DNA of 23,988 bases, taken from positions 1-23,988 of IMG/VR virus record IMGVR_UViG_3300009147_000027; one strand, written 5' to 3'. Made by a program: the position numbers and the translations under genes. This stretch comes from a virus. The notes under the pieces were generated by a model. The model saw only the letters and a program-made list of their open reading frames with translations, searched no databases and was not told the DNA's origin. Every line of letters starts with the position of its first letter. The first letter of the stretch is position 1. Below are positions 486-17,776 of the stretch, one piece after another.

Positions 486-1275
486 TCCGCTAGCTACGCC
501 CACAACCATTGCCTTTGCTGGCGATTGGCACATGAATGCACCATGGGCAGTCTCAATGATCCAAAATGTCTCGTACCAGGACGTTGACGTCATCATCCAT
601 GCCGGCGACTTTGGCTACACGTTCAACACCAGCTACCTGAACGCCCTGGAAGAGGCACTTGATAAGGCTGGGATCCATCTCCTTTTCGTGGACGGAAACC
701 ACGAGGACTACGAACAGTTGTACTCGTTTCCAGTGGGAGAGAACGGTCTCCGAGAACTGGCTCCGCATATCTGGCATGTTCCCCGGGGCTTCCGCTGGAA
801 CTGGGGCGGTGTGCGGTTCATGGGCATGGGTGGCGCGCATTCAGTCGACCGGCCCTGGCGCCAGCAGGGGATCTCGTGGTGGCCAGAGGAACTGATCACG
901 TTCACTGAGATCGCCAAGGCTGCCGCAGAGGGTCCAGTTGACGTGTTGGTTTCCCATGACTGCCCGAAAGAGGTGACCATCCCAGGCATTGACGATCGGG
1001 CGGAGAACCGGTACTCAGACTTCCCACCTGAGCAGTTGCAGTTGGCCCGTGCTCACCGGCAGAGACTGTCCATGGTGACTAGCGCGGTAACTCCGACGAT
1101 CATTGTGCACGGGCACTACCACCGGGCGTACGCAGCCCACGAGCAGTTTGAACATGGCGGCGTGATCGTCTGGGGTTTGGACTGTGACGGGACCAGTTAC
1201 CAGCAGAACATCCGGATAGTGGATTTGGTCGACATTCAGGCGGTTACTGGCCGTTCGCCAGAGTCAGACCAGTAA
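469..1275 (+). CDS. calcineurin-like metallophosphoesterase
   Basis: This is a 268-aa cytoplasmic phosphoesterase with the complete dinuclear-metal signature in order: GDWH (residues 18-21), GDFG (46-49), GNHE (76-79), SHDCP (162-166) and HGHYH (214-218). These are the ligands and catalytic His of the calcineurin-like family, whose members hydrolyse phosphomono- or phosphodiesters. A ribosome site (GGGGAGAG) precedes the ATG. It overlaps the zinc-finger-like gene and lies in the plus-strand run leading to the holin. Phage members of this family have been proposed to act on nucleotides or nucleic-acid ends, but the substrate cannot be read from sequence. There is no signal peptide and the length is normal for a single-domain enzyme. 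The family call is firm and the biological role is open. Confidence 0.93.
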   Translation: MTELTDPLATPTTIAFAGDWHMNAPWAVSMIQNVSYQDVDVIIHAGDFGYTFNTSYLNALEEALDKAGIHLLFVDGNHEDYEQLYSFPVGENGLRELAPHIWHVPRGFRWNWGGVRFMGMGGAHSVDRPWRQQGISWWPEELITFTEIAKAAAEGPVDVLVSHDCPKEVTIPGIDDRAENRYSDFPPEQLQLARAHRQRLSMVTSAVTPTIIVHGHYHRAYAAHEQFEHGGVIVWGLDCDGTSYQQNIRIVDLVDIQAVTGRSPESDQ

Positions 1276-1285
1276 GATCCCTGAC

Positions 1286-1561
1286 ATGGCTGAAGTTATC
1301 GCTGAAGGTGCTCACGATCATCCTCTACCGCCACGAGGTCGCCGTCCCCGCTATCCATGGGAGACCTGGCGCGATGGCCAGTGGCGCTTCGCCCGGGAGG
1401 GTGTGGACTACACCTGTACGTCCGCTTCTTTCCGGACCGCCGTATACGCCCACGCTCGGATAGCAGGAACGGCGGCGCACACCTACATGGTCGATGACGG
1501 TGTCGCTTTCGTGATCCTTGTCCACGAAGATGATCCGGTCCCAAGGTATCCCGGTATGTGA
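1286..1561 (+). CDS. small conserved-looking phage protein (91 aa)
   Basis: This basic, Trp/Arg-rich protein contains PRYPWETWRDGQWRFAREGVDYTCTSASFRTAVYAHARIAG. The layout WxxWxDGxWxxxxxGxDYxxxxxxFRxxxxxxA followed by a DDGVAFVI strand is familiar from small actinophage proteins of unknown function. It follows the metallophosphoesterase by 10 bases with only a weak ribosome site, so coupling is likely. It ends at TGA 1559-1561, just before a possible promoter. There is no membrane segment or catalytic motif. I can support it as a real gene from composition and packing, but not name its role. Confidence 0.78.
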   Translation: MAEVIAEGAHDHPLPPRGRRPRYPWETWRDGQWRFAREGVDYTCTSASFRTAVYAHARIAGTAAHTYMVDDGVAFVILVHEDDPVPRYPGM

Positions 1562-1562
1562 T

Positions 1563-1591
1563 TTGTCTACCCGAGGGTACGGGTGTAAGGT
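1563..1591 (+). promoter_or_regulatory. putative sigma-70-type promoter
   Basis: TTGTCT (1563-1568) and TAAGGT (1586-1591) are separated by exactly 17 bases in the only sizeable gap of the left operon. The spacer contains GAGGGTACGGG, related to the GGGGTAC words in the other control regions. It would drive the two small membrane proteins and the holin. An imperfect hairpin (GGTAG 1589-1593 with CTACC 1614-1618) overlaps its -10 and extends into the leader. This is sequence match only. Confidence 0.35.
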
Positions 1592-1637: not shown

Positions 1638-1814
1638 ATGAACTTCATCCTGAAGACGGTCGGCATCATTATCGTGATCCTTGGTGGGCTGGCCAGCTTC
1701 TTGGCCAGCCAGGAGGGCAACGACAGTGCCGTACGGGGCGGTGTGATCATGGCAGTGATCGGTCTCGCCGTAGCTGCCCTTGGTTCACTGTTCAAGTCCA
1801 AGGCAGGCAGCTGA
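1638..1814 (+). CDS. small two-helix membrane protein (58 aa)
   Basis: The protein reads MNFILKTVGIIIVILGGLASFLA, then a short polar turn (SQEGNDSAVRG), then GVIMAVIGLAVAALGSLF, with a basic tail. That is two hydrophobic segments in a hairpin. The ATG at 1638 is preceded by AAGGAG and GGAG in AAGGAGAACAGGAGCAC, so a longer in-frame start far upstream at 1518 is not needed. It is followed 5 bases later by another small membrane protein and then by the holin. The context suggests a lysis-associated membrane protein, such as an accessory holin or antiholin, but two-helix proteins in this position have various roles. Confidence 0.75.
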   Translation: MNFILKTVGIIIVILGGLASFLASQEGNDSAVRGGVIMAVIGLAVAALGSLFKSKAGS

Positions 1815-1819
1815 CCTCA

Positions 1820-2029
1820 ATGGACTGGCTCGCTGCTGATACCCCAGGTATCCCTGGGCAGCACATCCCCGGCCTTGATGAGCTGATGGGTCAACCATGG
1901 TTCTGGCCGGCGATGGCCGCCATAGGTCTAGCCATCGTGCTGTCCCGGCTCTGGAAGCACCCCAAGGTGCTCATCGCGGTGATCGCCGGTATCGCGGTCA
2001 CGTTGTGGGTGCTCAGCCAGATCGACTAG
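1820..2029 (+). CDS. small membrane protein, possible second holin or antiholin (69 aa)
   Basis: After a polar N-terminus (MDWLAADTPGIPGQHIPGLDELMGQ) come two hydrophobic stretches: PWFWPAMAAIGLAIVLSRLW and, after KHPK, VLIAVIAGIAVTLWVLSQ. The Lys/Arg residues between them fit a two-pass hairpin. It starts 5 bases after the preceding membrane gene with no clear ribosome site, so it is probably translationally coupled. It ends 8 bases before the large hairpin in front of the r1t-like holin. Several consecutive small membrane genes beside a holin are typical of actinophage lysis cassettes, where they act as second holins or antiholins. That role is inferred from position. Confidence 0.75.
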   Translation: MDWLAADTPGIPGQHIPGLDELMGQPWFWPAMAAIGLAIVLSRLWKHPKVLIAVIAGIAVTLWVLSQID

Positions 2030-2037
2030 TTCCCTTG

Positions 2038-2081
2038 AATCCCAACTCCACCTATCCTTCGGGGTATGTGGAGTTGGGATT
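2038..2081 (+). promoter_or_regulatory. long hairpin with UUCG loop burying the holin start codon
   Basis: AATCCCAACTCCAC (2038-2051) is the exact reverse complement of GTGGAGTTGGGATT (2068-2081). After one C-T mismatch the inner bases pair again (2053-2057 with 2062-2066, one G-U) and close on a TTCG tetraloop (2058-2061) flanked by C and G. The holin ATG (2066-2068) lies wholly within the paired region, and there is no purine-rich ribosome site outside it. The structure could block holin translation or attenuate transcription from upstream. It is followed by only three T residues, so it is not a canonical terminator. Confidence 0.65.
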
Positions 2082-2284
2082 TCTGGAAAAAAACCATCGA
2101 GCGTGCGATTAAAACGCCGCTTGAGGTGTATGTCATCGCTATTGGTGCTGATGGCGCGAACTGGTTTAGCGTCAACTACAACGACATGTGGAAGTTGGCA
2201 GTTGGTTCTATGATTGCCTGCGTTGCCGTGTCCCTTATCTCATCTCAGGTAGGCCCCACAAAAGACGATCCCAGTGTCGTTTAA
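2066..2284 (+). CDS. r1t-like holin
   Basis: This 72-aa protein begins MWSWDFWKKTIERAIKT, the hallmark N-terminus of the phage r1t holin family. A GADG turn and a hydrophobic C-terminal helix (WKLAVGSMIACVAVSLISS) with a short hydrophilic tail follow. Holins accumulate in the cytoplasmic membrane and open it at a set time so endolysin can reach the cell wall. No endolysin gene is visible here; it may lie left of the window. The start is placed by family N-terminal match. The ATG is buried in the 2038-2081 hairpin and lacks a normal ribosome site, so expression is probably restricted. Its TAA overlaps the stop of the convergent primase-helicase gene. Confidence 0.85.
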   Translation: MWSWDFWKKTIERAIKTPLEVYVIAIGADGANWFSVNYNDMWKLAVGSMIACVAVSLISSQVGPTKDDPSVV

Positions 2285-4848
2285 CGCCGCATAGTGCCCA
2301 GGACACCGAACATCATGTTCTGGGCCAGACCCTTCCAGTTGGACCCTTTCTCCCGCGTGTACTCGTATCCGAGGTTCTCGATCCGCCACTTGAACCGGCG
2401 ACTACCCAGTGGTCGCTGGAGGTTCAGGTTGCACCAGTCCACGTACTGAACGTAGAGGGCACGAGTAGCGACTAGGCCGTCCTCCTGGGCAAGGAGCGTG
2501 CCCTCCTCCAGGCTCTCGTGGACGAACATGGCGGCCGTGTCGGTCTCCAGCTTGTACTGGTCCACCTCGGAGCGCAGGGCATTCGGCTCGTTGCGCAACC
2601 CCTCCTCGCGGTACATGCGCACGCCCTCGATGAGCCAGTTGAGGATCCCGCTGCTCTCGGCCAGGAGTACCCGCTCAGCGAACGCCCCGACCTCCTGCTC
2701 CTCGCCTATAGGGCAGTCCATGCGGATCGGCTTGACCCGGCGCCAGATGGCATCGTCGTCGGAGGTCAAGGTGGGCAGGTGGTTGGTTGACATCCAAATG
2801 ACACAGTTTGGACGCCATGACACGAACTCGCCGTACAGGGGACGAGTTGTCAGGGTGTCGTTACCGGTGATTCGTTTGATCAGCTCCTCGTCCATGAGCG
2901 CGCCGATCGAGGTCTCCGAGAAGGTGACGAACCGCTTGCCCATGAGCAGGTGGAGGTCAGCCGGCAACGAGTCACCGCGACGGGACTTGAACGTGGACGC
3001 GGCAGCCGAGGCCCCGTAGTCACCGAAGATCAGTTCGATGGCCCGACACAGCTGAGACTTACCGGTACCTGAAGGTCCATGCAGGAGGAACACCGCGCGC
3101 TGGTCAGAGTCACCGAGCAGGGTGTACCCCAGAGCCCGCTGAAGGTAGTTCCGCATAGCCGTATCAGGAATGGCCCGTTCAATAAACTTGACCCATTCCG
3201 GAGCAGTTGCGTCTGGATTCCAGCTGGCGTTGAACTGCTTGGTGAGCATGTCCTTAGGATCGTGTGCGTGGACCTGGAGAGTGTCTAGATCCAGCGTGCA
3301 GTCCTTGAGATTGAGCAGGTTCCGCTTACTGTCAAAGTCCAGGACATTCGCCGTTACCATACTGGCGAACAAGCCAATTGCACCATTAACGTGTGTGGCC
3401 ATACCCGAAGAGCCATACCACTTGTTGATTTCCTTGAAGTCGCTGGTTCCCCTGGCCTGGTCGACCTCGGCCCGGAGGTACTCCATGACTCCCCGGTACT
3501 TCAAACTGACCTTGGCCCCCTTGTCGCGTGCCCAGTGGGTACCGGTCCAGTGTCGCCAGTGCTTGTCCTGGGATACGAACTTGAACGTGCCCTGAGCAAC
3601 TTCCGCTAGTCGTTCGGCGTTGCCAATGTCGTTGAGCATGTGCCTTTCACTGGGTACGTATTCAGGTTCGTGGTGACCGTTGCCGTTGGTGTCAGCTGGG
3701 CGCGGGGGCACGAAACTAGGCGCTTCAGTGATGGGCGTTATCTGTGCTATCTGAACCCCGTAACCTTGACTCCTGAGGGCCTTTGCGGCTGCGGAGAAAT
3801 CATTTCCATAGCCATTGATGATTGCCCATGCGGCACCCTTGGTGTAACACCTCCAGGGCTCGAATTCGGTCTCAGTGGTGAAGATGAATAGCCGATCCCT
3901 TTCCGCATTACGACCCGTGGTAGCCGAGTGTCCGTCACTCTTACGCTTTCCCGGCCTCGTCCAGTAGCGGGTACCACCCACGGTTTTGCTTAGCGTCCAC
4001 CCTTCAAGGATGTCAGCCCAATCGACCTTATTCTCGAAATCGTTAAATGGAGTTACTTCTGATCGATCACTGTTAATAGGAATGTATGAAAAGTGGGACA
4101 CGACGGGAGCCGTTGTTTCCAGAGTTGCCCTGGCCCTGTCCAGGTGCCCCTCCAGCTCCTGGAACGTGTACATCTGTCCGTCACCGTCACCGTGCACGAT
4201 CCGACACGGCTGTGGTCGACCCTCGACCTTGAGGTTCACTGTCCCAGGTATCCGGAGTACCCGAGCAAGATCACCAATTCCGGTGCCGTAGTGCCAGCTG
4301 AGTCGTTCGGCACCACGGGCAAGGATGTCCTGCCACCCCGTGGAGAGCGCCTTGACCCGCTCCAGCACGTCCTGGTCGGTGACCATCACTGGCTGCCTCA
4401 GCAGCCACCAGGGGTACAGCCCGCCACCGCTGTGGATCCACAAGGAAGGAGTGGGGAGTCCAGCTGCTCCTACGATCGAACGGGCCGTGCTCTCATCAGG
4501 GGGTAGCAGATTCTTGGTCTTGTGCCCCGGGCCGGCGATGTCGATGTCGGCCCAGAGCCCTGGAAACTCAAGGGAGTCGGACTCTCCGCCACGACCACCG
4601 AGCTTGGGTTCTTCCCGTAGCGTGCAGGCCCGCAAGTAGATCCCGGCTACCCGTGCCTCATGGCACTCTTCCACGTACCGTAGAAGATCATTAAGTTTGT
4701 CGAGGGTAAACGTACGCCCTGTCCAGCCGTTCGACGTGGACACATGGAGCAGGCCCTTGGAATCGCCATGAATCAGCTCAATAAAGGACTGTACTTGTGC
4801 CAGGTCCAGCCTGGACTGGCTAGATGTGGTGTCTACCTGTACAGTCAC
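2281..4848 (-). CDS. primase-helicase (AEP-like primase plus D5/SF3 ATPase)
   Basis: This 855-aa replication protein primes and unwinds phage DNA. The N-terminal third looks like an archaeo-eukaryotic-type primase domain: DID (101-103), HSGGG (139-143) and DLARVLRIPGTVNLK (193-207). The C-terminal half is a D5/P4-type superfamily 3 helicase: Walker A GPSGTGKS (591-598), an acidic strand RFVTFSET (639-646), polar motif MSTN (686-689) and an arginine pair IWRRVKP (about 703-704). The start is GTG, preceded by AGGGGGG with 8 bases between. The gene is convergent with the holin; the two stops share TTAA. Upstream lies a repeat and hairpin region, a candidate origin. It is transcribed in the same direction as the SSB-like, nuclease and regulator genes, though it may have its own promoter. 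Confidence 0.92.
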   Translation of the reverse strand: MTVQVDTTSSQSRLDLAQVQSFIELIHGDSKGLLHVSTSNGWTGRTFTLDKLNDLLRYVEECHEARVAGIYLRACTLREEPKLGGRGGESDSLEFPGLWADIDIAGPGHKTKNLLPPDESTARSIVGAAGLPTPSLWIHSGGGLYPWWLLRQPVMVTDQDVLERVKALSTGWQDILARGAERLSWHYGTGIGDLARVLRIPGTVNLKVEGRPQPCRIVHGDGDGQMYTFQELEGHLDRARATLETTAPVVSHFSYIPINSDRSEVTPFNDFENKVDWADILEGWTLSKTVGGTRYWTRPGKRKSDGHSATTGRNAERDRLFIFTTETEFEPWRCYTKGAAWAIINGYGNDFSAAAKALRSQGYGVQIAQITPITEAPSFVPPRPADTNGNGHHEPEYVPSERHMLNDIGNAERLAEVAQGTFKFVSQDKHWRHWTGTHWARDKGAKVSLKYRGVMEYLRAEVDQARGTSDFKEINKWYGSSGMATHVNGAIGLFASMVTANVLDFDSKRNLLNLKDCTLDLDTLQVHAHDPKDMLTKQFNASWNPDATAPEWVKFIERAIPDTAMRNYLQRALGYTLLGDSDQRAVFLLHGPSGTGKSQLCRAIELIFGDYGASAAASTFKSRRGDSLPADLHLLMGKRFVTFSETSIGALMDEELIKRITGNDTLTTRPLYGEFVSWRPNCVIWMSTNHLPTLTSDDDAIWRRVKPIRMDCPIGEEQEVGAFAERVLLAESSGILNWLIEGVRMYREEGLRNEPNALRSEVDQYKLETDTAAMFVHESLEEGTLLAQEDGLVATRALYVQYVDWCNLNLQRPLGSRRFKWRIENLGYEYTREKGSNWKGLAQNMMFGVLGTMRR

Positions 4849-4964: not shown

Positions 4965-5001
4965 GATGCAGGGACCTCCTTGAGAAAGAGGTCCCTGCAT
5001 C
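4965..5001. repeat. inverted repeat (14-bp perfect stem) with a perfect Shine-Dalgarno sequence
   Basis: GATGCAGGGACCTC (4965-4978) is perfectly complementary to GAGGTCCCTGCATC (4988-5001) with a 9-base loop. On the minus strand one arm and the loop edge carry AAGGAGGT (4974-4981), a full Shine-Dalgarno sequence with no start codon at a usable distance. On the plus strand the same bases read ACCTCCTT, like the 16S rRNA 3' end. There is no T-run. Function is unknown; an RNA element or origin structure is possible. Confidence 0.5.
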
Positions 5002-5095
5002 ATGTGAGCCTCCGGTTAAACGAAAAGGTTTTCTGATCGTACGCCCAGCCGGTGGCTCGTGGTACCTTGCACTTCTGCAACTCTGCCTTCTCTGA

Positions 5096-5135
5096 AGCAA
5101 CCGCCCCGGACTTGCCATCCGGGGCGTTTGCTTTT
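5096..5135 (+). terminator. intrinsic terminator (plus-strand polarity, possibly bidirectional)
   Basis: CGCCCCGGA (5102-5110) pairs with TCCGGGGCG (5118-5126) around a 7-base loop and is followed by TTTGCTTTT (5127-5135). The stem extends with AAGCAA/TTGCTT after one mismatch. The T-run is on the plus-strand side, although no plus-strand gene ends nearby. On the minus strand it sits just after the SSB-like stop codon with a weaker run (GTTGCTTC), so it may also stop that operon. Confidence 0.65.
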
Positions 5136-5733
5136 AGAACGGGGCTTCGTTGTAGCTGGGATCCGAAGATGGGGGTGTCCGTGGATAAGCAGGCTGCTGT
5201 TGGCGCATCCGATCCAGAAGACTCTGCTGGGCCTGAGGATCTGGAACTGTATGAGGACTGGGACCTGGACTTGGGGGTGCCGTCACAGGGGCGATTGGTG
5301 CGACGGGTGACTGTGCAGTTGGTACGGGCGAAGCCGCGAACTCTGGATGAGTTGCGAGCCACGTCTGTGCCCGCCCTACCGCCACCTGATCCTGAGACGC
5401 CGACTCAAAAATGAACGGGGCCGTACGTCCAGGAGTACCTGCTCCTCGACCGATGCGACCCAGGAGAAGCTGACCCACACACGGACGGAGACCCTGAATG
5501 AGCTTGGACTGGAACCACAGCACGTTGCGGTAAACGTGACCCGCAGCTCCGTAGTCGTCCTTCTCGTCCATGTTCACCACGTCGCACGCGATGGCGTCTG
5601 AGGTCTCACCGGGTGGCGTGTACTGAGTAACAATTCCCGTTTTGTACTCCATGGGCCGCACAATGAGCAGCTGGCCCACAATGTCACGGGGGTTTAGCCG
5701 ATCCCCGCCACTAGGTTCACCGAATGGCTGCAT
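5134..5733 (-). CDS. SSB-like actinophage replication protein with EAPF tail
   Basis: This 199-aa protein has a globular, strand-rich N-terminal part (about residues 12-130: RDIVGQLLIVRPMEYKTGIVTQY ... VLWFQSKLIQGLRPCVGQLLLGRIGRGAGTPGRTAPFIF). A Pro/Ala/Gln-rich, probably disordered linker follows, ending in SYNEAPF. An ordered domain, a flexible linker and a C-terminal acidic-x-Pro-Phe tip are the build of single-stranded DNA-binding proteins, whose tip recruits other replication proteins. The N-terminal part resembles a conserved actinophage family I know only as hypothetical, so the OB fold is inferred. GAGGAG lies 6 bases before the ATG. It follows the nuclease gene by 14 bases, and the shared operon with nuclease and primase supports a DNA-metabolism role. 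Confidence 0.72.
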   Translation of the reverse strand: MQPFGEPSGGDRLNPRDIVGQLLIVRPMEYKTGIVTQYTPPGETSDAIACDVVNMDEKDDYGAAGHVYRNVLWFQSKLIQGLRPCVGQLLLGRIGRGAGTPGRTAPFIFESASQDQVAVGRAQTWLATHPEFAASPVPTAQSPVAPIAPVTAPPSPGPSPHTVPDPQAQQSLLDRMRQQQPAYPRTPPSSDPSYNEAPF

Positions 5734-5747
5734 TCTCTGCTCCTCTG

Positions 5748-6611
5748 TTACCAGCCGGGACAGCCGTGCTCATTGGCACCTACCCCGTCGTCTGGTGGTG
5801 TTCCTTGCCGATAGAACGGGCACCAACCACATAGCTTGGACGGTTGCGCTTCCACTTCAACCCAGCGGTGTGGGTTGTCGATCACATCCAGGGCGATGAG
5901 CTTAGCGCCGATGTTGTTGACCCTGTCAAGGGCCAGCTGGGCGATCGTGGGGTCATAGTCACCGACCCAGACCCACATGTCGGACAGCCAGCCAGCCCGA
6001 GGTAGGGCAACGAGGCACACCTTCTCAACCGGGAATCCCGCATTGATCTGCCCCATCCCGTACAGGTTGACCTGGATCACGTAACTCTCTGGGGGACCTT
6101 CCGCTTTGAACTTCGCGAGGTTCTTGGACGAGACCGTTTTCCAGTCGATGATCATTTTTCGTTCTGAGTCGTATAGGTCGCTGTGTCCCATGACCCAGTC
6201 GTTGGGGTGGACTCGTCGCTCGGTCAGATATCGCTGGAGCCCGTGGACTCTTTGGTAGTCAGTGACCGCCGCTTCGAGCCAGGTGTGGACTGCTGTTCCC
6301 ACAACAGCTGGCCAGTGGTCATAGTCATTGGCGAAAGGAATTCCAGCGATACGGTAGCCGAGTCGTCGATCACAGGCGTCACCGAGCTCAGAGGGACCGA
6401 TAGCCACTTGCTGGCTACGTGAAGAATTTTTGTCTGCCCACCCAATGACATCAGTGAGTTCCTTCCGAACCGCTAGTGCCTCACCTGTTATTGACCCCGG
6501 AGGGTCAACGAACTCAATCCAGGCTCCTGGACTTATCTCGTAGCAGGTGGGGTGTCGGGTCTGCCCTGGCTCGTAAGGCATCATTTCCTCACGGCATACG
6601 ACGCACTTCAA
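5748..6611 (-). CDS. PD-(D/E)XK nuclease, Cas4/RecB-like, with Cys cluster
   Basis: This 287-aa protein carries the RecB/Cas4-type nuclease motifs: GPSELGDACDRRLGYRIAG (72-90), His109 in VVGTAVHTWLE, Asp145 in GHSDLYD, Asp156-x-Lys158 in IIDWKT, and QVNLYG (Gln180, Tyr184). Cys80 with Cys261, Cys264 and Cys284 (CGWC...GC) gives the one-plus-three arrangement that binds a 4Fe-4S cluster in Cas4/AddB nucleases. A separate N-terminal CVVC...HPTC (Cys3, Cys6, His20, Cys23) looks like a zinc knuckle. The family cuts or resects DNA ends during replication or recombination. It starts with TTG, overlapping the TGA of the regulator gene by 3 bases, so translation is coupled. No Cas genes or CRISPR array are nearby, so this is a phage recombination nuclease. 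Confidence 0.88.
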   Translation of the reverse strand: MKCVVCREEMMPYEPGQTRHPTCYEISPGAWIEFVDPPGSITGEALAVRKELTDVIGWADKNSSRSQQVAIGPSELGDACDRRLGYRIAGIPFANDYDHWPAVVGTAVHTWLEAAVTDYQRVHGLQRYLTERRVHPNDWVMGHSDLYDSERKMIIDWKTVSSKNLAKFKAEGPPESYVIQVNLYGMGQINAGFPVEKVCLVALPRAGWLSDMWVWVGDYDPTIAQLALDRVNNIGAKLIALDVIDNPHRWVEVEAQPSKLCGWCPFYRQGTPPDDGVGANEHGCPGW

Positions 6612-7012
6612 CTGGGCTTCACCTCATACTTGTAGATGAACAGACCCAGAACTCCGAGATCTTCGTGGTCAAGTTCGCCTTCGGTACACCAGCGCATAAT
6701 CGTGGCGAGGCTGACTCCTAATTGCCACACGACGTTACTTACCGGCGTCAATTCATAGATGTCATGACCTGATAGCTCGTATTTATCCAGTTCCTTTTGT
6801 GCCGCCGTCCACCAGGAACCCACCTGCATTGCTGACGTTCTCTTCATTCCTTGTTTGCCCGTCTCCCATTTCCTCAGGCTGTCCGGAGACGTACCAATGA
6901 GAGCGGCGAGAGCGGTACGGGAAAGGCCCAGCTTGTCGCGGAGTTCTACAAGATCACCCTGTGTAGCGACGCTGAAACCAATTCGTACAAGGAGTTCGTC
7001 GCTGTCATCCAT
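6608..7012 (-). CDS. dual helix-turn-helix regulator (putative immunity repressor)
   Basis: This 134-aa DNA-binding protein has two recognisable HTH units. Residues about 18-55 (GDLVELRDKLGLSRTALAALIGTSPDSLRKWETGKQ) are an XRE/Cro-type HTH. Residues about 86-125 (VVWQLGVSLATIMRWCTEG ... DLGVLGLFIYK) look like the MerR/excisionase-type winged HTH used by Xis-like proteins. It is the first gene of the minus-strand operon and faces the terminase across a 72-bp control region. A TTGACA-17-TACTGT promoter ends 6 bases before its ATG and no ribosome site is present, so the mRNA is probably leaderless, as for lambda cI. It is probably autoregulatory and may set the lysis-lysogeny choice. It could instead be an excisionase or replication regulator. 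Confidence 0.85.
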   Translation of the reverse strand: MDDSDELLVRIGFSVATQGDLVELRDKLGLSRTALAALIGTSPDSLRKWETGKQGMKRTSAMQVGSWWTAAQKELDKYELSGHDIYELTPVSNVVWQLGVSLATIMRWCTEGELDHEDLGVLGLFIYKYEVKPS

Positions 7013-7047
7013 GCCAGGACAGTAGACCCCCGTACCCCCTATGTCAA
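7012..7047 (-). promoter_or_regulatory. promoter of the regulator operon, predicted leaderless
   Basis: On the minus strand, TTGACA (7047-7042) is a perfect -35 and TACTGT (7024-7019) fits the actinobacterial -10 pattern TANNNT, with a 17-base spacer. Six bases later comes the regulator ATG (7012), so transcription should begin at or next to the start codon. No Shine-Dalgarno sequence exists, which agrees with a leaderless message. Confidence 0.6.
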
Positions 7048-7084: not shown

Positions 7085-8611
7085 ATGGGATTGTCCCTGG
7101 CCAAACGATTCAGCATGTTGCCCAATGCTCTTCAAGAGGAATGGCTTAATAGCCTTTCTCAGGACATGCTTGAGGAAATTGACAGGGGTGAATGGTGGTG
7201 GACTGCACGTCCGGAGCAGATCCCACCTGACGGTGGATGGTTTGTGCTCCTCTACCTGGCTGGACGTGGCGCGGGCAAGACCAGGGCCGGGGCGGAATGG
7301 TTGATCTCTCGGGTCGAGGAATATCCAGTAGACCAGTCGGGGGCGGCTACTGAGCACTTGGTTGTAGCAGAAACACTTTCCGACGCAAGGACCATCTGCG
7401 TAGAAGGTCCCAGTGGGCTACTTCGGGTGCTTGATCGACGTGGTTACCAGCAAATCTCAGGGTTACGTGAACTGGGCGAGCGCACGTACCGGTACACCAA
7501 GAGCCCTAAACCTAAGCTGGAGATCGGACCGCCGGGTACCAAGATCTACTTCGAGGGGGCAGACAAGCCCGACGTTGGCCGTGGCTACAACGCATCATCC
7601 GGGTGGCTTGACGAGATCATCAAGTGGCCGTACCCCAAGCAGGCGTGGATAGAAGGCATCATGCCCTCGATGCGGGCCAACCTGGTGGGGGACCACCCCC
7701 GGATCCTGGTCACTACCACCCCCAAGCCACTCGACTTGTTGTATGAGTGGGTAGCCCGTGACGACGGTTCAGTTCACATCGTCCGTGGCTCCACATACGA
7801 CAACGCGGACAACCTGTCCGAGCAGGCCATGCAGGAGATGCGTACCCGGTACGAGGGCACCACGATCGGACGCCAGGAGTTGTACGGAGAGCTGCTGGAC
7901 TCCTTCGATGGAAGCCTGTTCCGTCAGGGCGACATCGACCGGTACCGGATCGACATCCCGCCAGAGTTGGCCCAGATTGCCTTGGGTGTAGACCCGTCGC
8001 TCACTGGCGAAAACGCGGAAATGGGCATCGTGGTCGTTGGTCGTGACCGCGAAGGACACCTGTACGTGTTGGGCGATGAGACAGTTCCCGGCACCGGCAA
8101 GTTGGTTGCGGAGTACGCCTGGGAGATTTTCACCCGGTATAAGTGCGACATGTTGATCTACGAGAACACTCAGGGCAAGGAGTGGCTCTCTCAGGTCATG
8201 CTCGATGCGTACAAAGAATTGAAGAGGCAGGGCTACTTCGATGGCAGCAAGTACCAGGCGCTATCTGGCCCGCCCATGAAAGCGGTCGACTCCAAACGGG
8301 GTAAGCGGCTACGTGCCCAGCCCGTTGCCATGCGCATGGAACAGGGGCGCATGCATCACGTCGGTTACTTCGATGCCCTAGAGCGGCAAATGGTCAGCTG
8401 GGTACCCGAAACAACCGCACGAACCCACCGGGACTCCCCCGACCGACTCGACGCACTCGTCCATGCCGCTTGGCATTTGATCGGTTTCGACAAGCGCCAG
8501 GTCAGTATCGCCCGACGCAAGGTCCGGGTCACTGCCCCTGGGGAGATGTATGTACCTGACTACTTCTCAGAGATAAGCCGAGCGGACGGTAGGCATCCAT
8601 CCTGGATGTGA
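7085..8611 (+). CDS. terminase large subunit
   Basis: This is the packaging motor ATPase and nuclease (508 aa from ATG 7085). The ATPase half has Walker A GRGAGKT (60-66), Walker B GWLDE (173-177) and the coupling motif TTTP (210-213). The nuclease half has the RNase H-like fold motifs GVDPS (Asp303), LIYEN and PDRLDALVHA, which supply the metal-binding acidic residues. It docks on the portal and moves DNA into the prohead. The open frame extends upstream to 6851, but that part is antisense to the regulator gene and lacks coding character. No ribosome site precedes 7085; leaderless initiation is plausible. In-frame ATG 7115 is an alternative. No small-terminase gene is seen beside it. It is first in the head gene run. 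Confidence 0.95.
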   Translation: MGLSLAKRFSMLPNALQEEWLNSLSQDMLEEIDRGEWWWTARPEQIPPDGGWFVLLYLAGRGAGKTRAGAEWLISRVEEYPVDQSGAATEHLVVAETLSDARTICVEGPSGLLRVLDRRGYQQISGLRELGERTYRYTKSPKPKLEIGPPGTKIYFEGADKPDVGRGYNASSGWLDEIIKWPYPKQAWIEGIMPSMRANLVGDHPRILVTTTPKPLDLLYEWVARDDGSVHIVRGSTYDNADNLSEQAMQEMRTRYEGTTIGRQELYGELLDSFDGSLFRQGDIDRYRIDIPPELAQIALGVDPSLTGENAEMGIVVVGRDREGHLYVLGDETVPGTGKLVAEYAWEIFTRYKCDMLIYENTQGKEWLSQVMLDAYKELKRQGYFDGSKYQALSGPPMKAVDSKRGKRLRAQPVAMRMEQGRMHHVGYFDALERQMVSWVPETTARTHRDSPDRLDALVHAAWHLIGFDKRQVSIARRKVRVTAPGEMYVPDYFSEISRADGRHPSWM

Positions 8612-8647
8612 TGCTAATATGCCGCGCCTTACCGTTACGCTGTTCTC

Positions 8648-8941
8648 GTGATCCATCCACTGATACTCCTGATCCTCGCATTGGCAGTGACCAGGGCGAG
8701 TCAAGTCATCGTGGACGACAAGATCTCCGAGCCGATTCGAATGGCCGCGATCCGTCGATTCGGCGAGGAGGGGCTACTGACTTATCTTGTTCACTGTCTA
8801 ATGTGCGTCTCGGTATGGGTGGGCATGATTGTCGCAGTCTATGCCTGGGCGGTTCTCGACCTTAATGTATGGCTTATTGGCCCGGTCGGGCTGGCTTTCT
8901 CTTACCTGGCGGTTGTGCTGAACAGGTTGAAGGGTGACTGA
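8648..8941 (+). CDS. DUF1360-like small membrane protein
   Basis: This 97-aa protein has an N-terminal hydrophobic segment (HPLILLILALAVTRASQVI), a polar stretch (DDKISEPIRMAAIRRFGEEG), the signature LVHCLMCVSVWVGMIVAVYAWAV with two Cys three residues apart, and a C-terminal hydrophobic segment. This matches the DUF1360 pattern of small phage and bacterial membrane proteins with a CxxC-VSxWVG motif, whose function is unknown. It starts with GTG at 8648 without a clear ribosome site; an in-frame stop at 8615 limits longer versions. Its TGA shares one base with the portal ATG, so the two are coupled. Its position between terminase and portal recurs in actinophages. A role in assembly at the membrane or in exclusion is possible but not shown. 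Confidence 0.78.
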   Translation: MIHPLILLILALAVTRASQVIVDDKISEPIRMAAIRRFGEEGLLTYLVHCLMCVSVWVGMIVAVYAWAVLDLNVWLIGPVGLAFSYLAVVLNRLKGD

Positions 8942-10761
8942 TGGCACTGCGTAAGAAGGGGACTCCGCCCGTCACCGCGCACACCTCTATGGCGGCGGCA
9001 CGACTTGACCTTAAGGCTCCGAACTGGAAGAGCTATCGGTTCCGTAATGAGCAGTGGCAGGTGGAAGCGTGGCGTTTCTATGACCTGATTGGCGAACTCC
9101 ACGCCGCTGCAAACTGGATGGGCAGTGCCTGTTCCCGGGTCCGTATTTACGTTGCTGACATCGATAAGTACGGACGGATCGGTGAAGAAGCGGCCGGTGA
9201 CGAGATCCAGGCCATCGCCGACAGCCTCTTTGGTGGGCCAGCAGCCAGAGCCGAGGCAATGCGTTCCATTGGCATTAACCTAACCATCGCCGGTGAGTGT
9301 TACATCGTTGGACGTTCCATCAACGGTGAACGAGATGAGTGGTACATCCTCTCCCCCAACTCCCTGCGATTTAACGGTGACGCGGTCAGCTGCGATCTCG
9401 GCTACGGCCACAAGGAGATGCTGCGACCCAACGCTGACATTGCCATTCGGGTTTGGACACCACACCCGCGAATGGGCTGGACTGCTGACTCACCAACTCG
9501 GGGATCACTACTGGCTCTACGGCAATTGGAGCTACTGACCCGACACACCTTCTCTCAGATCGATTCACGGCTCACCAGCGGTACCGGAATGCTTATCATT
9601 CCGCCGAAGATGGACTTCCCCGATGCGGACCCGGAGGAGACCCCTGCCGAGAGTGTGGTCCGGGTGCTCACCGACGCCATGACTGCCCCTGCCATTCAGG
9701 ACGGTTCGGCTCAGGCCGTGGTACCGATCGTGGTTGAGCGTCCTGCCGGTGAAGGTGAGAACAACAAGTTTGAGCTGCTCAGCTTCGAGTCTCCGCTGTC
9801 TAAAGAGGCTAAGGAGATGCGCGACGAGGCGATCCGTCGACTTGCGCTCAGCCTGGACATGCCGCCGGAGATCCTGCTTGGTACCGGGGACACGAACCAC
9901 TGGAGCGCCTGGCACATTGAGGAGTCCACCGTCAAGATCCACGTTGAGCCGATGCTCAACCGGATCTGCGACGCGCTCACGAAGGCGTACCTCCAGCCAG
10001 CCCTGAAGATCCTTGGTAAAGACACCGAGGCGTACACCTTCTGGTTCGATACAGCGCCACTGACGGTGCGTCCTAACCGGCTTCAGGACACCTTGAACCT
10101 GTACCAGCAGAATGTGGTGTCTCGGGAAGCGGTCCTGGAGGCGGGCTCGTACAACCCGAATACTGATGCGCCCGACGAGGACGAGGACAACCGGCGGTAC
10201 ATGCGTGAGCTACTGCTCCGCGACCCAAGCCTGTTCGCTATCCCCGAGGTTCGTGAACTCATCGGCATCACTGTCGAGTTCGCCGAGCCGGAACAGCCAC
10301 CACCGGGCGCACCTCCGCCACCGGCGCCAGATCAGTCCATAGAGGGTGCCAGCCCGGAGGCCCTGCCTCAGCAGCCAGCAACCACTGACGCTGTCGTGGC
10401 ATCTGTTGTGCCGGATCTTGTTCCACGAGCAAGTTCCACCATGGTGGCCGCTGACCTTCTCGTACATCACGCTCTTCGGCTCGCGGGCAAGAGGCTTCAC
10501 AAGAGCCGTGAACGTGATCAGTGGATGCACATCCCTGCCCACAAGTTGCACACCTTCATTAAGGTGCAGGACCGTGCACATGCAGAACGGATCCTGATGG
10601 GCGCCTGGGAGCACATGGACGTAGTCACCGGCGACCTTGACGTTAATCCAGACGAGTTCCGGCTGCTTTTGCACAATTACTGCATCGAGCTGCTCATTCG
10701 CTCCATGGAGCATGGTCGTTCGCTACTGTCCATGACCCTTACCAGGGGTGGCATGATCTGA
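8941..10761 (+). CDS. portal protein
   Basis: The 606-aa protein forms the dodecameric ring at the head vertex through which DNA passes and on which the terminase docks. Family-typical stretches are IGINLTIAGECYIVGR, WYILSPNSLRF, a long central segment GSLLALRQLELLTRHTFSQIDSRL, and LSLDMPPEILLGTGDTNHWSAWHIEE followed by the stem-like VEPMLNRICDALTKAYLQPAL. A Pro-rich disordered segment (about 440-480: EPEQPPPGAPPPPAPD) precedes a C-terminal helical domain (about 500-606) rich in Leu, His and Arg. The ATG overlaps the upstream TGA by one base, and the MuF gene starts one base after its stop. Length and order (terminase, portal, MuF) are standard. Confidence 0.95.
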   Translation: MALRKKGTPPVTAHTSMAAARLDLKAPNWKSYRFRNEQWQVEAWRFYDLIGELHAAANWMGSACSRVRIYVADIDKYGRIGEEAAGDEIQAIADSLFGGPAARAEAMRSIGINLTIAGECYIVGRSINGERDEWYILSPNSLRFNGDAVSCDLGYGHKEMLRPNADIAIRVWTPHPRMGWTADSPTRGSLLALRQLELLTRHTFSQIDSRLTSGTGMLIIPPKMDFPDADPEETPAESVVRVLTDAMTAPAIQDGSAQAVVPIVVERPAGEGENNKFELLSFESPLSKEAKEMRDEAIRRLALSLDMPPEILLGTGDTNHWSAWHIEESTVKIHVEPMLNRICDALTKAYLQPALKILGKDTEAYTFWFDTAPLTVRPNRLQDTLNLYQQNVVSREAVLEAGSYNPNTDAPDEDEDNRRYMRELLLRDPSLFAIPEVRELIGITVEFAEPEQPPPGAPPPPAPDQSIEGASPEALPQQPATTDAVVASVVPDLVPRASSTMVAADLLVHHALRLAGKRLHKSRERDQWMHIPAHKLHTFIKVQDRAHAERILMGAWEHMDVVTGDLDVNPDEFRLLLHNYCIELLIRSMEHGRSLLSMTLTRGGMI

Positions 10762-17424: not shown

Positions 17425-17452
17425 TCGGGGTCAGGGTTCGCCCTGGCCCCGA
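17425..17452 (+). terminator. GC-rich UUCG hairpin after the major capsid gene
   Basis: TCGGGGTCAGGG (17425-17436) pairs with CCCTGGCCCCGA (17441-17452) through 12 pairs (one G-U) closing on TTCG (17437-17440). It starts 8 bases after the capsid stop. No T-run follows (TAACCAC), so it is more likely a partial terminator or an mRNA-stabilising element lowering expression of downstream genes relative to capsid. Confidence 0.5.
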
Positions 17453-17473: not shown

Positions 17474-17776
17474 ATGGCAATCGGCGCGAAGGCGTTTACC
17501 ACTTCCGGAACCACGGTCATCCACACCGGTCCGGTCAACTTTTACGGAATAACCCTGCGCAACGCAGCGGGTACCACCGACAACGTGGTTACCGTTTTCG
17601 ACAACACCGCAGCGTCGGGAACAGTTCTTGCCTCGTTTGGGCCACTGGCAACCGCCGGTGCCGCGAACTCGTTCGCCCAGGTGATATTCCCGGCAGCAAT
17701 CCGAGCAGCAATCGGAATTACTGTTGCCATTACCGGCACCACCCCGAACATCGTCGGTTCGGTCCTCGCCGACTAA
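17474..17776 (+). CDS. small structural protein, candidate head decoration (100 aa)
   Basis: This Thr/Ala/Val-rich, strand-forming protein (MAIGAKAFTTSGTTVIHTGPVNFYGITLRNAAG ... ITVAITGTTPNIVGSVLAD) has no charged helices, Cys or membrane segment. AAGGAG lies 8 bases before the ATG, a strong ribosome site fitting high expression. Its place directly after the major capsid gene and its beta-rich makeup suggest a head decoration or fibre protein. The pattern GITLRNAAGT...VFDNTAASGTV...I.FP.AI resembles small virion proteins in other phages, but I cannot name a family. Placement and composition are seen; the role is inferred. Confidence 0.75.
   Translation: MAIGAKAFTTSGTTVIHTGPVNFYGITLRNAAGTTDNVVTVFDNTAASGTVLASFGPLATAGAANSFAQVIFPAAIRAAIGITVAITGTTPNIVGSVLAD

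Follow-up and report, generated by a model that had tools for sequence, protein, structure and literature searches.

We analysed a 23,988-nt stretch of viral DNA (the window; positions 1 to 23,988 of IMG/VR record IMGVR_UViG_3300009147_000027) in which the gene of a holin, a lysis protein that punctures the membrane, lies between a unit of two small genes, TM1 and TM2, and a converging primase gene. The source virus is an uncultivated phage, the same virus as that of IMG/VR contig 3300006845_000030; over 5.3 kb the two records differ only at positions 124-126 (AGA vs GTT), so the second record gives no covariation signal. The holin has relatives in Mycobacterium and Gordonia phages and, together with the promoter style described below, they suggest that the host is an actinobacterium. 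The features of the locus are the following:

1563-1591, plus strand: candidate promoter of the TM1-TM2 unit (TTGTCT-N17-TAAGGT), from a consensus match only; the unit runs into the hairpin
1638-1814, plus strand: TM1, a small two-TM-like protein with a probable homologue in relative L004 and a good Shine-Dalgarno (SD) sequence
1820-2029, plus strand: TM2, a small two-TM-like protein with a homologue in L004; stop codon TAG at 2027-2029
2030-2035, plus strand: TTCCCT, a weak and doubtful -35-like hexamer (3/6 match, 17-nt spacing)
2037-2082, plus strand: RNA hairpin, from the minimum free energy (MFE) fold and shuffles; outer stem 2037-2051/2068-2082, inner stem 2053-2057/2062-2066, loop 2058-2061
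2053-2058, plus strand: TATCCT, a candidate -10 box (TANNNT) comprising the inner left strand and the first loop base, ending 7 nt before the ATG
2066-2284, plus strand: r1t-type holin gene, 72 aa, with an N-terminal motif common to actinophage holins
2281-4848, minus strand: D5-type primase/helicase (PF08706, 8.9e-22; phrog_1156), converging on the holin

The holin ORF matched the r1t-type holin profile PF16945 (5.7e-9; 36.4 bits vs a curated cut-off of 26.9) and phrog_443 (holin, 9e-11). Its frame opens after the TGA at 2036-2038, and the start at 2066 is well supported because this ATG is the sole ATG, GTG or TTG ahead of the conserved N-terminus.

The hairpin around the holin start codon

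In the MFE fold, the outer stem consisted of 14 Watson-Crick pairs and a terminal G2037.U2082 pair, and a 1x1 mismatch (C2052/U2067) separated it from an inner helix of 5 bp, including U2055.G2064, with the UUCG loop closed by C2057-G2062. This agreed to the base with an earlier, sequence-only reading of the locus, which had described a perfect 14-bp stem, a 5-bp inner helix and a C(UUCG)G loop. The folding energy, which that reading had proposed as a check, was -35.8 kcal/mol, compared to -16.2 +/- 2.5 in 200 dinucleotide shuffles (z -7.8), none of which was as low. The hairpin ranked as the most stable of its kind in the 36.9-kb virus; likewise, when no more than one mismatch was allowed, Watson-Crick stems ran to 16 pairs in the real genome and never beyond 13 in 60 dinucleotide-shuffled versions of it. 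The plus-strand RNA folded better than the minus-strand RNA (-35.8 vs -29.9 kcal/mol), since only the plus strand has the U.G pair and the UUCG loop, and this preference favours a role as RNA over a DNA palindrome. No Rfam family matched the element, and a search for tRNAs found none.

The holin ATG (2066-2068) lies within the right arm, of which codons 1-6 of the gene form part. The A and the G of the AUG are paired, while the U sits in the mismatch, giving unpaired probabilities in read-through RNA of 0.03, 1.0 and 0.0, respectively. Pairing to the anti-SD upstream of the ATG reached a mere -1.1 kcal/mol. The enclosed start codon, the lack of an accessible ribosome site and the arm made of the first holin codons, all part of the sequence-only reading, were thus recovered.

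We compared this start with about 55 distinct r1t-holin starts gathered from viral contigs. It had the weakest anti-SD pairing of the set (typical values were -6 to -14 kcal/mol) and the longest enclosing stem (20 pairs, against usually 4-8 and 11 in the next longest), which indicates that the arrangement is specific to this virus and no trait of r1t holins. Start codons within hairpins are mechanically not rare: in 1.1 Mb of DNA from related phages, 97 open ATG/GTG codons were enclosed by a hairpin with 13 or more pairs. Most of these are no demonstrated starts of genes, whereas the holin ATG is a conserved gene start.

Relatives carrying the same pairing of holin and hairpin were searched for in several ways. 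The holin scan of viral contigs and the TM2 alignment scan recovered the same virus only (3300006845_000030), and the phage records held no nucleotide relatives. In viral contigs the hairpin-arm pattern matched in three contexts, all of them unrelated. Among twelve primase-bearing relatives, PF16945 was present only in the same virus and in G008/L026; a terminase-alignment scan of 50 loci detected the holin in none except the same virus, and a search of bacterial genomes by terminase yielded no prophage. The holin, TM2 and terminase scans therefore returned no second virus with both holin and hairpin, so that nothing shows selection on the pairing, and we count this against the model preferred below.

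Other hairpins were observed in the window. Two strong ones, at 4965-5001 (-27.3 kcal/mol) and 5094-5134 (-26.9 kcal/mol), lie between gene 5134-5733 and the primase start, the latter with a T-rich plus-strand tail, although the genes on either side are encoded by the minus strand. A perfect 12-bp GC-rich hairpin without a U-tract (17425-17452, -24.5 kcal/mol) ends 21 nt before the ATG at 17474, and a similar hairpin in relative L029 (9390-9419) lies 22 nt before gene 8522-9367 on the minus strand.

Position of the hairpin and candidate leaderless promoter

The hairpin begins 7 nt past the TM2 stop codon, between convergent gene blocks, and is thus a stable stem following a stop codon, as looked for in terminators. 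The nearest relative, L004 (terminase 68% and primase 48% identical), carries in order the homologues of TM1 and TM2, a hairpin of 13 bp (14 nt past the TM2-homologue stop codon) and the converging primase, with no holin between the TM2 homologue and the primase. The two hairpins differ in sequence and share the position; their local similarity is marginal (p 0.03). A different hairpin at the same spot in L004, which has no holin there, makes the window hairpin terminator-like; a terminator is the simplest reading of its position, and it probably terminates transcription.

The U-tract, AUUUCU, is weak (T-score 2.8 or 1.4, according to the stem end chosen), as it is on both strands, and the hairpin was absent from the list of the terminator scan. 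In mycobacteria, 'I-shaped' terminators without a U-tract are described within 50 bp of stop codons, though the function of such U-less terminators is disputed in the literature (PMC12288462). Of 28 primase loci, 8 had a strong hairpin in the 450 nt downstream of the gene, where overall density predicts about 10%; this count excludes the window's own hairpin, as its wobble is lost on the minus strand and its loop is over the limit. Upstream of the primase, strong hairpins were present in 11 out of 35 loci in the wider family.

With TATCCT ending 7 nt before its ATG, the holin shows the sequence pattern of a leaderless gene, namely TANNNT 5-8 nt before the start and no SD. In actinobacteria, leaderless genes are marked by a TANNNT some 12 bp ahead of the start codon (PMC3160421), and they amount to about 14% in mycobacteria (PMC7148126). 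Across the genome, 22 of 1149 ATGs (1.9%) had TANNNT 6-8 nt upstream. This holin was the only one of the 97 start-in-hairpin cases with TANNNT at leaderless spacing and, among the holins surveyed, only this one and that of L026 had the motif 6-8 nt before the ATG. The r1t holin of L026 (contig 3300031949_000044, 1495-1755) has TACTCT-N6-ATG, no well-placed SD and no strong hairpin at the start, and is possibly another leaderless holin.

In an RNA beginning at A2066 the left arm would be missing and, by calculation, the AUG would be open, with unpaired probabilities of 0.95-1.0, 0.75-0.77 and 0.75-0.97 for its three bases. TATCCT at 2053-2058 may be a working promoter. Counted against this are the unconvincing -35, for which TTCCCT is the best candidate, and the shortness of TANNNT, which may occur by chance; several repressor promoters of relatives are likewise without a clear TTGACA.

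The repressor gene of the virus shows the textbook form of such a promoter. The HTH repressor-like gene at 6608-7012 (minus strand) is preceded by TTGACA-N17-TACTGT-N6-ATG (window 7010-7047). In about 20 diverged relatives, the repressor ATG or GTG likewise follows a TANNNT at a distance of 5-8 nt, in many of them with TTGAC at -35. From these sequences, the repressor messages are probably leaderless across this uncultivated phage family, and starts of the leaderless type appear to be part of its biology. The ORF at 1286-1561 (TAAGAT-N7-ATG, window 1273-1288) also has a weak SD and may be a second leaderless gene.

Proposed mechanism, rival explanations and known systems

Our preferred model, to which we give a probability of about 0.45, is a terminator combined with a translation lock on upstream RNA, from both of which the holin would escape through a leaderless promoter within the hairpin. 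On RNA from the TM1-TM2 unit, the hairpin would act in a terminator-like manner just past the TM2 stop; any RNA reading through would hold the holin AUG in the helix, with no SD, and little or no holin would be made from it. The holin would instead be expressed from a promoter whose -10 box is TATCCT within the hairpin. Its transcript would start at or beside A2066, leaderless and missing the left arm, and would be read by leaderless initiation of the actinobacterial kind. Lysis would then be uncoupled from upstream transcription and set by the internal promoter alone, so that its timing would result from the arrangement of hairpin and promoter.

The sequence-only reading had placed the timing of lysis in RNA structure. 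Silencing of the holin by RNA structure on upstream RNA is plausible, but the position of the hairpin indicates a terminator, and TATCCT-N7-ATG could act as a promoter; if it does, the lock would be absent from every holin message. That reading had itself named a start within the structure among its alternatives, and had also regarded a transcription start removing the left arm as contrary to it; TATCCT-N7-ATG, if used, would fit both.

Alternatively, the hairpin could be no more than an intrinsic terminator, either for the TM1-TM2 unit or, bidirectionally, for the convergent units, with a holin that moved in, a fortuitous overlap with its start and low expression by read-through without a dedicated promoter. 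UUCG loops are common in terminators, and the spacing from the TM2 stop, the hairpin at the same place in holin-less L004 and the frequent hairpins around the primase in relatives all agree with this. However, read-through RNA leaves the AUG paired and without an SD, so that a lysis gene expected to be important would hardly be translated; the U-tracts are weak on both strands and the resemblance to the L004 hairpin is marginal, and we consider this explanation unlikely. A conditional translational lock on the co-transcript, opened by ribosomes finishing TM2, by a protein or by an RNA, would draw on the TM2 stop codon 36 nt before the holin ATG, from which a terminating ribosome would cover the stem base, and on the cUUCGg loop and U.G pair, which favour a plus-strand RNA role. 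Such a ribosome would nevertheless reach the first few pairs only, there would be no SD even once the hairpin was opened, and neither an Rfam match nor a candidate factor or repeated motif was found in the genome, which leaves this lock rather improbable.

Two further explanations concern the DNA and the gene call. The perfect dyad arms flank the putative -10 box and the start, and the two 14-bp arms might be half-sites of an operator for a repressor sitting on the holin promoter; yet an inner helix with a U.G pair and a UUCG loop would be purposeless in DNA, and a genome search found the arm once as a hairpin, with no second copy within two mismatches in a comparable arrangement, so that an operator is very unlikely. 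The lack of an SD at ATG 2066 could instead point to a wrongly annotated start, with a shorter holin made from GTG 2126, but the conserved N-terminus (W..FW....ERA.KT) is encoded ahead of 2126 and would be lost; we give this the least credence of all.

Returning to the terminator and lock bypassed by a leaderless promoter, we also put forward, more tentatively, a single 46-nt element with three overlapping functions: it would end transcription from the upstream unit, lock translation on RNA that reads through, and provide the -10 box for a leaderless promoter of the lysis gene, with the holin made only from RNA starting at its own AUG. Such an element would resemble the T4 gene e device but work by the leaderless expression of actinobacteria. 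If true, it would be a compact insulation of a lethal lysis gene in actinophages, in which terminator, start codon and promoter share bases and leaderless translation replaces the ribosome site, and the T4 gene e principle would then also hold for phages of hosts that make wide use of leaderless mRNAs.

The sdi stem-loop of the lambda S holin chooses between two starts and leaves the SD; both cases have RNA structure at a holin start, but the window holin has a single start and lacks an SD. The start-associated sequences (SAS and ESAS) of cluster K phages likewise place an inverted repeat at phage gene starts, the SAS being a 13-bp GGGATAGGAGCCC in 11-19 copies per genome and the ESAS lying upstream of the start (PMC3203893). 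In the window, the element is instead single, unrelated and includes the start codon: GGGATAGGAGCCC is absent from 2030-2066, which places the element outside that family, and the arms are unrelated to the cluster K repeats and present as a single hairpin copy, in line with the difference from mycobacteriophage start-associated repeats that the sequence-only reading had suspected. The preferred model follows the logic of T4 gene e, whose lysozyme start is buried in the long RNA and exposed in the RNAs made from late promoters that lie within the left arm (PMC3014915). Both are lysis genes with the start region sequestered on long upstream RNA (here in a predicted fold). The T4 promoters in the 5' arm give RNA without the lock, and in the window the candidate TATCCT-N7-ATG, with its weak -35, would do so. 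T4, however, keeps an SD and its late promoters are read with phage gp55, whereas here there is no SD, the promoter would be a host-type TANNNT and the message would be leaderless; the window hairpin, a prediction from sequence, also sits where a terminator is expected. Actinobacterial leaderless genes (PMC3160421, PMC7148126) share TATCCT-N7-ATG-like spacing and the missing SD, but here the -10 box and the start are embedded in a strong hairpin, with no clear -35. Finally, the long stem, the poor U-tract and the location within 50 bp of a stop codon are those of the mycobacterial I-shaped terminators (PMC12288462), with the difference that here the next gene begins in the right arm.
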